Shown here: positions 6,547-51,149 of the stretch, piece by piece
How the letters are laid out: each line of letters begins with the position of its first letter
Numbering within the stretch: the stretch's first letter is position 1
Assembly: GCF_017313765.1 (NCBI RefSeq)
Contig: NZ_JAFLNC010000006.1
Span: forward strand, 1 to 64,000
Reading direction: 5' to 3'
Source of the DNA: Sneathiella sedimenti
Lineage (GTDB): Bacteria; Pseudomonadota; Alphaproteobacteria; Sneathiellales; Sneathiellaceae
Length of the DNA stretch: 64,000 nucleotides
Position numbers and translations under genes: made by a program
The notes under the pieces: model-generated
Seen by the model: only the letters and a program-made list of their open reading frames with translations
The model's database searches: none
What the model was told of the DNA's origin: nothing

Positions 6547-6738
6547 ATGTATATATGCCTTTGCAATGGATTGACGGACCGAGATATCAAAAGTGCCGTC
6601 GCGTCTGGCGCTCAGCGAATCGCAAATGTCTATGAATCTCTGGGGGCGGCCCCGCAGTGCGCGAAATGCACGACCAATATCCGGGATATCATTCGGGAAT
6701 CCGCGGGCAATAATGCGCCAGTTACCGTTCGTCGGTGA
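6547..6738 (+). CDS. bfd: Bacterioferritin-associated ferredoxin
   Basis: Small [2Fe-2S] protein of 63 residues that reduces the iron core of bacterioferritin through its heme, releasing Fe(II). Four cysteines are in the family arrangement: Cys4 and Cys6 (YICLCNGLT), and Cys38 and Cys41 (QCAKCTTNI). Its location just after bfr and behind a Fur-like box supports the assignment. The C-terminal tail (about 12 residues) is slightly longer and basic. The gene ends 84 bp before the convergent nitronate monooxygenase. Confidence 0.92.
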   Translation: MYICLCNGLTDRDIKSAVASGAQRIANVYESLGAAPQCAKCTTNIRDIIRESAGNNAPVTVRR

Positions 6739-6792
6739 TCTGGCGACTTAATCAAAACTCAATCATTTATCGGGAAATGAAGAAATTACCCC

Positions 6793-6807
6793 CACCCTTT
6801 TAGGGTG
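6793..6807. other. Hairpin between convergent bfd and nitronate monooxygenase
   Basis: CACCCT (6793-6798) and AGGGTG (6802-6807) form a 6-bp stem with a 3-nt loop. It lies between two converging genes, but neither strand has a following T-run, so it is not a canonical intrinsic terminator. Confidence 0.35.
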
Positions 6808-6822
6808 AGGGATAAATTCAGT

Positions 6823-7794
6823 CTAAAGGGCCTTATTATTAATTTCAGCCTTGGCCTGGGCATACTGTTCTTTTAAGCGATCAACATATTCTTTAACGCT
6901 CGGCACGTCGCTTACGCTGCCAATTCCCTGCCCGGAACCCCAAATGTCCTTCCAGGCTTTTGACTTACCGGTTCCGCCGCTGCCAAAGTTCATCCGGCTT
7001 TTATCGGCACCCGGTAAATTTTCCGGATCAAGTCCAGCTTTCACGACGCTTGGGCGCAAATAGTTCCCGTGTACGCCGGTAAAGGTGTTGGTATAGAGAA
7101 TATCCTCACCGGTACTCTCCACGATCATATTTTTGTATTCTTCGACCGCATTTGCTTCCCTGGTCGCGATAAAGGCGCTTCCCATATAGGCGAGGTCTGC
7201 TCCCATCGCCTGGGCTGCCAGAATCGATCGGCCATTAGCAATCGCGCCCGAAAGTGCAATCGGTCCATCGAAGAACTGCCGAACTTCGGAAACAAGAGCA
7301 AAGGGGCTCAACCGTCCGGCATGACCGCCTGCGCCGGCACAAACCAGAATCAATCCGTCGACTCCGGCTTCAAGTGCTTTCTCTGCATGGCGGATGGTAG
7401 TCACGTCGTGCAGGATAATACCGCCGTAAGAATGGATGGCTTCTACAATCTCATTCGGCGCACGAAGGCTTGTAATAATGACCGGGACTTTATGCTTGAT
7501 GCAAAGCTCAACATCCTGCTCCAGCCGGGAATTCGAGGCATGAACGATTTGATTGACTGCAAAGGGAGCAACTTTCTGCTCCGGATTAGCCGTTGCATAA
7601 TCAGAAAGTTCAGTCTTGATCTGGTGGAGCCATTCATCCAGCTGGGAGAGAGGCCGCGCATTAAGGGCAGGAAATGATCCAACGATACCCTGCTGGCACT
7701 GCGCAATAACCAACTCTGGCCCGGACACAATAAACATCGGTGATGCAATTACCGGAAGAGAAAGACGCCCTTCCAGAACGGTCGGCATAGACAT
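6823..7794 (-). CDS. Nitronate monooxygenase (2-nitropropane dioxygenase family)
   Basis: FMN-dependent TIM-barrel enzyme of 323 residues, predicted to oxidise alkyl nitronates such as propionate-3-nitronate. The family signature CAGAGGHAGR (about residues 152-161, with the conserved His158) and PIALSGAIANGRSILAAQAMGADLAYMGSAF (FMN phosphate loop) are clear. Some homologues act as enoyl reductase-like proteins, so the substrate is not certain. The ATG at 7794 is preceded by AGGAGAC. The leader carries three tandem hairpins (7831-7957), which is unusual for this family and may regulate its mRNA. Confidence 0.88.
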   Translation of the reverse strand: MSMPTVLEGRLSLPVIASPMFIVSGPELVIAQCQQGIVGSFPALNARPLSQLDEWLHQIKTELSDYATANPEQKVAPFAVNQIVHASNSRLEQDVELCIKHKVPVIITSLRAPNEIVEAIHSYGGIILHDVTTIRHAEKALEAGVDGLILVCAGAGGHAGRLSPFALVSEVRQFFDGPIALSGAIANGRSILAAQAMGADLAYMGSAFIATREANAVEEYKNMIVESTGEDILYTNTFTGVHGNYLRPSVVKAGLDPENLPGADKSRMNFGSGGTGKSKAWKDIWGSGQGIGSVSDVPSVKEYVDRLKEQYAQAKAEINNKAL

Positions 7795-7830
7795 TTATTG
7801 AATGTCTCCTGTTTATTTTTTGAAGGTTCA

Positions 7831-7957
7831 GCCAGGTCTGGATCTTGCGCCCAGTTACCTGGCTTTATAAAGTTCTACCAAGCCTGGATCTTGCGCCCAG
7901 TTACTTGGATTTAGATTTTTTAGCCAGGCCTGGATCTTGCGCCCAGTTACCCGGCTT
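7831..7957 (-). repeat. Three tandem 35-nt hairpin elements, 46-bp period, in the nitronate monooxygenase leader
   Basis: Copies lie at 7831-7865, 7877-7911 and 7923-7957, so the period is exactly 46 bp. Read on the minus strand, each copy forms an outer stem, a 2-nt AA bulge, an inner CTGG/CCAG stem and the invariant loop GCGCAAGAT. The outer stems are GCCAGGT/ACCTGGC, CCAAGT/GCTTGG and GCCGGGT/GCCTGGC: the sequence changes but pairing is kept, with G-U wobbles only in the minus-strand transcript. The elements end 37 bp upstream of the nitronate monooxygenase start. There is no U-run, so they are not simple terminators. I do not recognise a named family. Confidence 0.8.
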
Positions 7958-8395
7958 GGCCATTCTATTAGCAGGCTTTTTTTAAAATGACAAATTGTCA
8001 TTATTGACAAAATTTCATTTTTCCTCTTCGCACCTGCAGCATTATTGCGAATAATCTTTGAAAAACAAAATATTATTACTTTTGGCCCTGCGTAAAAAAA
8101 ATTTCTTCGAAACCAACGGTCGCGGTACTTCAGAGTCAAAACCGGGTCCTCGGGTCGCGATTCACCATTTTTGATTCTCTTTTCATCGACAAATTCCGTC
8201 TCTTCGAACCCAATTTTGTAGTCGGCTAATTTTTCCCACAAATCGGGAAATATTGCCGCCTCTGCCTATGATGAGAAGGTGCTGTTTCTCGCCGCCACCT
8301 TAAAAACCTATAGTTTTACTCCACTTTGCCGTTGATTTGATTCTGGCACAAAGGCTGCATATGGAAGAGCAAGTAAATCTTTATGGAGACTATTT
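7958..8395. other. AT-rich gene-poor stretch between the hairpin array and the PilZ gene
   Basis: No credible gene is visible. A 128-codon open frame on the minus strand (7855-8241) runs through the hairpin array, has no family features and is judged spurious. The stretch contains AT-rich tracts (for example around 7978-8050) that could hold the promoters of the minus-strand leader transcript and of the PilZ gene. The PilZ ribosome-binding site GGAG is at 8385-8388. Confidence 0.45.
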
Positions 8396-8746: not shown

Positions 8747-8837
8747 ACCATTTCGGCGCTCCCGGGCTTGACAATCCGGAAGCGCGATCACTAAGGTCAT
8801 TTAAGTTGCCGGGTTAAGCTGGCATTCCTTGATTATC

Positions 8838-9022
8838 CTGATGGGAGAGACCGGTACACCGGCGCCGAAGGAGCAACCGCCCCGGAAACTCTCAGGCACA
8901 TGTACCGTCAGGAAAGAGGGCTCTGGAGAGTATGTCGCGGCACGGCCGAACGCATCACCGAAGAGGTAAGCCGGGATTATACCGGCATAATCTTTCAGGT
9001 ACCGGGACAGAGGGGGCATCTA
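8838..9022 (+). ncRNA. Tandem glycine riboswitch upstream of sdaA
   Basis: Two glycine aptamers in series. Aptamer 1 begins GATGGGAGAGACC and contains GGCGCCGAAGGAGCAACC and ACTCTCAGGCAC. Aptamer 2 follows GGGCTCTGGAGAG and contains ACCGAAGAGGTAAGCC, TCTTTCAGGTACC and GGGACAGAGGGGG. These are the conserved elements of the gcvT-type glycine riboswitch. A small hairpin (TGGTG/CACCA at 9033-9048) between the aptamers and the ribosome-binding site is a candidate expression platform. Glycine binding would be expected to turn on L-serine degradation. Confidence 0.92.
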
Positions 9023-50312: not shown

Positions 50313-51149
50313 TCAACCGGTTGCGGCCATCAATCCACCATTCACCGAAGTATAGACTCCCCGCTGACCGTCCACCGGTTTAAAGCTGTCGCAAATACCA
50401 AGTACCGTTTCCGCTCCCCCCAGGAAGAGCGCGCCATCTTCAGCTAGGATATTATGGACCTGGGTTAGTACCTGGCTTTTTGTTGGCTGGTCAAAATAGA
50501 TCAATACGTTCCGGCAGAAGATAACGTCGAATTGACCCAGGTTTCCGAGATCTTCAAGCAGGTTCTTCGGTTGGAATTTCACCATTGCCCGGATAGAACT
50601 ATCGATCTGCCACATCTCTCCGACCTGCTGGAAATGCTTCATTAGCAATTGGATGGGAAGACCACGTTGCACCTCAAATTGTGAATAGAGCCCAGCTTTG
50701 GCCTTTTCCAAGACTTCATGAGAAATATCTGTTGCCATGATTTCCACACGCCAACCTGCCATTTTGGCGGCTTGCTCCTTCAGCAGCATGGCAAGAGAAT
50801 AGGGTTCCTGACCTGTTGAGCACGCTGCAGTCCATATCCGCAAGGATTTTTTCGCCGCGCGCGCCGACAACAGCTGCGGCAGCACGACATCACGGAAAGT
50901 ATCAAAGGGCTTGGTATCGCGGAAAAAGAAGGTCTCGTTAGTTGTCATCGCCTCGGTTATTTCTTCCAGAAGGCGTTCGTCATTATAGCGGCGAACTTCG
51001 TCCGCCAGAGCTGCCAGGTTTTCCAGCCCGCGTCGCCGTGCGAGAGGAACCAACCGACTTTCAAGCAAATATATCTTCTCTTCAGTCAGCACCAGCCCGG
51101 AACGTGACTTGACGATGTCGCAGAAGAGTTGGAAGTCCTTACTGTTCAT
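50313..51149 (-). CDS. cheR: Chemotaxis protein methyltransferase CheR
   Basis: SAM-dependent enzyme that methylates glutamates of chemoreceptors, 278 residues. The N-terminal helical domain (about 1-75) is followed by the Rossmann domain: EITEAMTTNETFFFRDTKPFDTF, IWTAACSTGQEPYSLAMLL (SAM loop), and FDVIFCRNVLIYFD. The start overlaps cheB by 4 nt; it is the last gene of the che operon. Confidence 0.95.
   Translation of the reverse strand: MNSKDFQLFCDIVKSRSGLVLTEEKIYLLESRLVPLARRRGLENLAALADEVRRYNDERLLEEITEAMTTNETFFFRDTKPFDTFRDVVLPQLLSARAAKKSLRIWTAACSTGQEPYSLAMLLKEQAAKMAGWRVEIMATDISHEVLEKAKAGLYSQFEVQRGLPIQLLMKHFQQVGEMWQIDSSIRAMVKFQPKNLLEDLGNLGQFDVIFCRNVLIYFDQPTKSQVLTQVHNILAEDGALFLGGAETVLGICDSFKPVDGQRGVYTSVNGGLMAATG

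Follow-up and report, generated by a model that had tools for sequence, protein, structure and literature searches.

Three tandem hairpins precede a nitronate monooxygenase (NMO) gene of Sneathiella sedimenti in its leader. They probably open a dual-role transcript, an mRNA with functional RNA at its 5' and 3' ends that persisted in sister species as a stand-alone small RNA once its coding part was lost. Sequence comparison across the genus supports the structure of the hairpin, its position, the joint conservation of both transcript ends and their independence from the reading frame. It also suggests a function for the RNA itself, with promoter, hairpin, tail and stop signal outliving the gene. 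To our knowledge, few cases show the stepwise origin of a new bacterial small RNA gene. Here one locus of one genus presents an mRNA state, an RNA-only state and an apparent intermediate, which makes the route from mRNA to small RNA testable at the bench. Coordinates refer to the window, the whole 64,000-nucleotide stretch that was analysed (Table 1).

Table 1 Features of the NMO locus and the evidence for each.
Feature	Position	Strand	Basis
Operator-like block TTGTCAATAATGACAATTTGTCAT, overlapping dyads, spanning the -35	7987..8010	-	cross-genome match
-35 hexamer TTGTCA	7988..7993	-	identical in 23/23 loci
-10 hexamer TAATAG after TGC, 17-bp spacer	7965..7970	-	geometry in 23/23 loci
Hairpin unit 1	7920..7957	-	repeat comparison, folding, covariation; predicted transcription start near 7958
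Hairpin unit 2	7874..7911	-	repeat comparison, folding, covariation
Hairpin unit 3	7828..7865	-	repeat comparison, folding, covariation
Shine-Dalgarno-like AGGAG	7806..7810	-	read from sequence
NMO CDS, 323 aa	6823..7794	-	Pfam NMO PF03060, E 5.5e-26
3' module: final codons of NMO, retained as RNA too	6829..6863	-	retained in NMO-less loci; low synonymous variation
Intrinsic-terminator-like stem and tail	6789..6811	-	terminator scan; similar stems end RNAs in folds

The hairpin array and its structure

The array occupies 7828-7957 on the minus strand, in the NMO leader. Its start-to-start spacings of 46 and 46 confirm the 46-bp period described in an earlier, sequence-only reading of this DNA, and the 20-nt core occurs three times in the window (up to three mismatches) against 0.00 expected from 100 shuffles. 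Only one additional core site within three mismatches exists in the whole 3.58-Mb genome. Units 2 and 3 are 81% and 85% identical to unit 1 across 48 nt. The units had been given as 35 nt long; the boundaries in Table 1 take in the whole outer stem. Folded singly as minus-strand RNA, each unit forms the common shape proposed in that reading, an outer stem, an AA bulge and a CUGG/CCAG inner stem (z -2.4, -2.4 and -4.4). As DNA, unit 1, the unit assessed in this way, is ordinary in stability on both strands (z -0.8 and -0.7). In the most stable predicted fold of the 231-nt leader, adjacent units pair with each other, so that the case for separate hairpins rests on the species comparison.

This comparison covers 37 hairpin copies (33 distinct) from 23 Sneathiella genomes, in which 91.4% of cells pair, and 10 of 13 stem pairs and 22 cells are changed on both sides, values reached in none of 500 shuffles. 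In the NMO clade (27 copies, 23 distinct), the paired fraction is 94.9% and both sides are changed in 6 of 12 pairs, and no measure is reached by more than one of 500 shuffles. These shuffles ignore relatedness; slid-structure controls, which account for it, score lower. G-U pairs make up 101 of the 392 paired cells in the 37 copies; 49 of the 101 fall in two stem pairs in which G-U is the most frequent combination. On the opposite strand, the G-U pairs would be mismatched. The proposal of a selected minus-strand RNA structure is thus supported. The loop GCGCAAGAT, previously called invariant, is so within this genome, but across the genus just its C...AAGA is fixed, together with the second A of the bulge; by reading, all 37 aligned loops conform to C-N(2-5)-AAGA. 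A GNRA-tetraloop interpretation was dropped, since loops CAACAAGA and CAAAAAGA exist.

Single folds vary among species. Both stems form in nine of the ten hairpins from loci without NMO, the outer stem is interrupted in G012, and G003, G008, G020 and G022 have middle units that are weak or adopt another fold. Three of the ten RNAs without NMO were folded whole, giving z -3.2, -4.2 and -3.2. A GGCC/GGCC pairing of the 3' module appears in many, not all, folds. A possible pairing between a hairpin arm and the 3' module, inspected by eye, proved not to be conserved and was abandoned.

Distribution of the hairpin

The genus set comprises 24 Sneathiella genomes, 13 with an NMO orthologue, ten without and one (G006) unclassified. 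Relatives of the window NMO in the 12 other Sneathiella genomes are 85-94% identical to it. All 13 NMO genomes contain the hairpin, in one to four copies and 27 in total: four in G018, three each in G000, G003, G008, G020 and G022, two in G001, and one each in G002, G010, G013, G014, G016 and G021. Units are spaced 46-51 nt apart in these genomes, and the core of the gene-nearest hairpin starts 60-63 nt before the ATG among the 12 NMO genomes listed. The tandem state is not required, because one hairpin is present in 16 of 23 genomes and two to four in seven. In several multi-copy leaders (L033, L034, L035, L038 and L044), CCGGG (in G018, CCGAG) marks the first hairpin and CCAGG the last. The multi-copy state may therefore be old, with copies lost later.

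Exact cores were found in eight of 95 genomes, all of the window's genus, and five genomes outside it have 3-mismatch matches only. A scan of the collection returned 11 stretches, seven from Sneathiella, three from (Alpha)proteobacteria bins and one from Streptomyces, the last taken as chance. At E up to 10, the covariance model matched 45 sites spread over 30 genomes, of which 18 belong to the genus; the matches with E <0.05 and those at the syntenic place were followed up. One match outside the genus (G261, E 0.0044 in the class sample) was judged chance, the 351 bases there being devoid of the promoter block. The spread to other gene families that the sequence-only reading expected was not borne out, as strict filters left no credible model match in the 380 non-Sneathiella genomes of the class sample. 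In the outgroup G024, no hairpin was found at E up to 1, either at its NMO locus or at its distant match to the neighbouring gene, which is possibly not an orthologue. Within the genus, the hairpins lie at one place per genome, directly after the promoter, which disposes of a dispersed repeat of the REP/BIME kind, a counter-explanation named from the start. In the window itself, a weak hairpin-model match at 50440-50478 on the minus strand (17.5 bits) is taken as chance.

Promoter and operator-like block

The operator-like block is present at this locus in 23 of the 24 Sneathiella genomes (up to three mismatches), with one weaker match elsewhere in G010, and in none of the 380 other genomes of the class sample within two mismatches. 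All 23 loci have TTGTCA, a spacer of exactly 17 bp that ends in TG plus one base, and then TANNNN, while the remaining spacer letters vary. A consensus promoter scan of 6700-8300 does not list this promoter because it demands T at the last -10 position. In folds, the stem starts about 5-8 nt past the -10 (G012 excepted), which places the predicted transcription start at the foot of the stem, give or take a few nucleotides. The terminator scan of the region found three candidates against 2.2 expected in shuffles, which by itself is weak evidence.

A further dyad, TTCGCA-N13-TGCGAA, lies at 8027-8051, upstream of the -35 by 33 nt. All 13 NMO loci have its TGCGAA half, none of the ten loci without NMO does, and the dyad is possibly a second regulator site.

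Loci without the NMO gene

The covariance model also matched four genomes that have no NMO orthologue (E 5e-9, 2.5e-8, 0.012 and 0.044), and these four hairpins adjoin the same 116-aa gene as in the window. We take this gene by eye to be PilZ-like; Pfam gave no match for it. A search with it found its place in 22 of the 24 genus genomes. In G013, which lacks the gene, the NMO locus is near a contig end, whereas G006 (66% complete) yielded neither the gene nor the promoter block and was left unclassified. Six further hairpins without NMO (G005, G009, G011, G015, G019 and G023) were located through the neighbouring gene and the promoter, and two of them had just weak prior model matches (E 8.1 and 0.98).

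In these ten sister species the NMO frame is absent, and the promoter, one hairpin, the 3' module and a terminator-like GC stem with a T-rich tail remain. The module, of about 35 nt, resembles the C-terminal codons of NMO and is much altered in G015 and G023. With a middle of 121-330 nt, the RNA gene measures about 240-450 nt and holds no family-wide reading frame. Its own promoter and terminator and the lack of a conserved ORF give it, at the level of sequence, the makeup that Hfq-dependent small RNA genes have. The next downstream gene is convergent in nine of the ten loci (Bfd-like in three, acyl-CoA dehydrogenase in six), which means that the RNA does not serve as a leader at those loci; the exception, G017, has a 302-aa ORF downstream on the same strand. 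The first description of the array as an NMO leader element was correct in that the hairpins stand between promoter and ATG in 13 of 13 NMO genomes, but too narrow, as the element also stands without NMO in ten sister species, where control of NMO cannot be its only role. At three of the NMO-less loci (L084, L085 and L086) a presumably Sel1-like gene lies between the PilZ-like gene and the RNA; none is found among the window ORFs. The names bfd, acyl-CoA dehydrogenase, Sel1 and PNPase are likewise our assignments by eye.

Conservation of the two ends

The ten loci without NMO were aligned by the promoter block and divided into segments bounded by hand, with one letter shuffle per pair as the null. 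Mean pairwise identity (shuffled value in brackets) is 0.63 (0.61) upstream, 0.94 (0.60) in the operator, 0.59 (0.50) in the spacer, 0.66 (0.57) in the hairpin, 0.50 (0.48) in the middle, 0.75 (0.56) in the module and 0.70 (0.55) in the terminator. The hairpin letters are thus little above the shuffled value. Across the 13 NMO genes, the synonymous codon difference of 0.51 for the whole gene drops to 0.10 over the final 12 codons, and of 25 blocks, codons 313-323 are lowest (0.115), followed by codons 300-312 (0.249).

Loss or gain of NMO

Protein trees separate the genomes with and without NMO. The split has supports of 95 and 99 in the tree of a 704-aa window protein, which was built without G013 and G017 and in which the unclassified G006 falls among the genomes without NMO. 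Supports are 100 and 95 in the tree of a 919-aa window protein (18 genus members), where G017 is a member of the clade without NMO. G017 retains NMO codons of about 3-17 in place, scoring 39 where shuffles reach at most 35 (0 of 200; 0 of 60 against whole genes); no 5' NMO trace stands out at the other nine loci (lowest 12 of 200, G023). The 3' module reads in frame like the NMO C-terminus, and its Y-x-x-A-K-A is common to other NMOs at that place. Upstream of the module, matches to NMO number 9 of 12 in G005 (null 1/197) and 8 of 12 in G017 (null 4/371); six of the eight loci tested, a set without G015 and G023, do not stand out. The start trace of G017 and the frame of the module favour loss of NMO, which is considerably more likely than gain.

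Gain of the window type in one clade also fits, since a different NMO type is present, among the matches listed, in nine NMO-less species and in the outgroup G024. A midpoint-rooted tree places the window type together with G033 and G042, which represent two distant genera. In the nine of ten NMO-less species, the other type is 60-64% identical to the window's NMO and lies elsewhere in the genome, and the second-best NMO matches in NMO-clade genomes reach at most 54% (both among the matches listed). Perhaps the two types were reciprocally lost between the clades.

Proposed origin and alternative explanations

In the model that we favour, the conserved promoter would start the RNA at, or a few nucleotides from, the structured hairpin, and the transcript would end with the conserved A-rich module of about 35 nt and the terminator; both steps are supported by the comparison. 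In one Sneathiella clade the NMO coding sequence lies between these ends and the RNA would accordingly be an mRNA, while in the sister clade the coding sequence appears to have been lost and the ends to persist as an RNA gene. On balance, then, the transcript seems to have been an mRNA with functional RNA in its 5' hairpin and coding 3' end before it lost its frame and became a small RNA, with both states and the apparent intermediate G017 in one genus. The 5'-terminal hairpin may shield the RNA from decay at that end, and its AA bulge and C...AAGA loop could be presented to an RNA-binding protein; each tandem copy would add another such site. Binding of Hfq and pairing with targets might fall to the terminator tail and to the 3' module, which contains a AAUAAUAA stretch. 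The RNA would then be a small regulator, and in the NMO clade it would combine this function with that of an mRNA.

A more conventional explanation is that the hairpins are a cis-acting leader of NMO only, binding a protein or ligand, and that the loci without NMO are decaying remnants whose ends survive by chance. Their placement between promoter and start codon in every NMO genome and the near-constant distance of the last core from the ATG in the 12 genomes listed agree with this. Nevertheless we consider it improbable, because the middle of the NMO-less loci has fallen to shuffled similarity whereas operator, module and terminator stay well above it, in the trees the loss falls at the base of a clade that has support, and a leader element leaves unexplained why synonymous change is low where the NMO frame ends. 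More doubtful still is the reverse history, an older small RNA into which NMO was inserted in one clade, turning the hairpin into a leader and the 3' module into C-terminal codons. The other NMO type shared by G024 and nine NMO-less species (among the matches listed) and the midpoint-rooted grouping of the window type with distant genera would suit it. Against it, the NMO start trace is in place in G017, the module encodes the Y-x-x-A-K-A that other NMOs have near the C-terminus, and NMO matches extend upstream of the module in G005 and G017, the other six of eight loci being unremarkable.

The repeats might instead be a DNA element without an RNA role, either regulator sites or slip-prone repeats, in keeping with the strongly conserved operator-like block just upstream and the labile copy number. 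This is very unlikely, given that stem changes preserve RNA pairing with G-U pairs on one strand, that the hairpins lie downstream of the predicted transcription start, and that the DNA of unit 1, the unit assessed, is of ordinary stability. Scarcely more credible, and if anything less so, is a small protein encoded by the NMO-less RNA: SD-like stretches precede ATG or GTG in some loci, but among 44 small ORFs in the ten RNAs cross-species similarity is confined to three genome pairs (G004-G017, G011-G019 and G015-G023). The loss of the frame from a dual-function mRNA stays our preferred reading.

Relation to known RNA elements

Dual-function transcripts and small RNAs derived from 3' UTRs, such as SgrS, RNAIII and CpxQ, resemble the present case in that a single transcript has coding and RNA roles and a 3' end with a terminator. 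Here, however, both ends are conserved, and a sister clade without the coding part keeps them. Mini-ykkC (guanidine-II) riboswitches likewise consist of tandem small hairpins in leaders, with ACGR loops; that loop is not conserved here (ACGR in 2 of 37 copies, G004 and G012), the family is absent from the Rfam matches of the leader, and one hairpin suffices. Sponge RNAs of the CsrB/RsmY type share a variable hairpin number and a conserved loop, but the present element has no conserved GGA and mostly one hairpin. Some 5'-terminal stem-loops, that of ompA among them, stabilise mRNA, and a hairpin is predicted at the 5' end here too, although with bulge and loop letters conserved beyond the needs of stability. 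In type III antitoxin RNAs, tandem RNA repeats precede a toxin gene, whereas the downstream gene here is NMO.

PMC3369931 defines the ANTAR leader by two hairpins with six-base loops, A at position 1 and G at 4, and a terminator overlapping the second hairpin. Small leader hairpins, short linkers and conserved loop letters are shared with that definition. The letters themselves differ, all 37 loops being C-N(2-5)-AAGA, the hairpin is usually single, and the scan of 6700-8300 lists no terminator in the leader, so this class was rejected. PMC5577775 deals with mammalian long non-coding RNAs that are fossils of coding genes, and so likewise with non-coding RNA from a former coding gene; the present case is bacterial, and its promoter, hairpin and coding-end module appear to be under selection both with the coding part and without it. 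For the RNA that it describes, PMC8687705 considers either emergence de novo or descent from a degenerate toxin-antitoxin system.

Searches of the open-licence literature on NMO riboswitches, Sneathiella small RNAs, small-RNA origins and tandem leader hairpins found nothing that explains the element. No Rfam 15 family reached its gathering threshold at the ten NMO-less loci, and a relaxed search with the leader and two of these loci gave at best 26.5 bits against a cut-off of 44. In the window, the only Rfam 15 matches above gathering are a glycine riboswitch and tRNA, elsewhere than the array. The riboswitch, at 8832-9012 on the plus strand, consists of two tandem aptamers (69.9 and 40.0 bits) before an L-serine dehydratase gene and is of a known kind.
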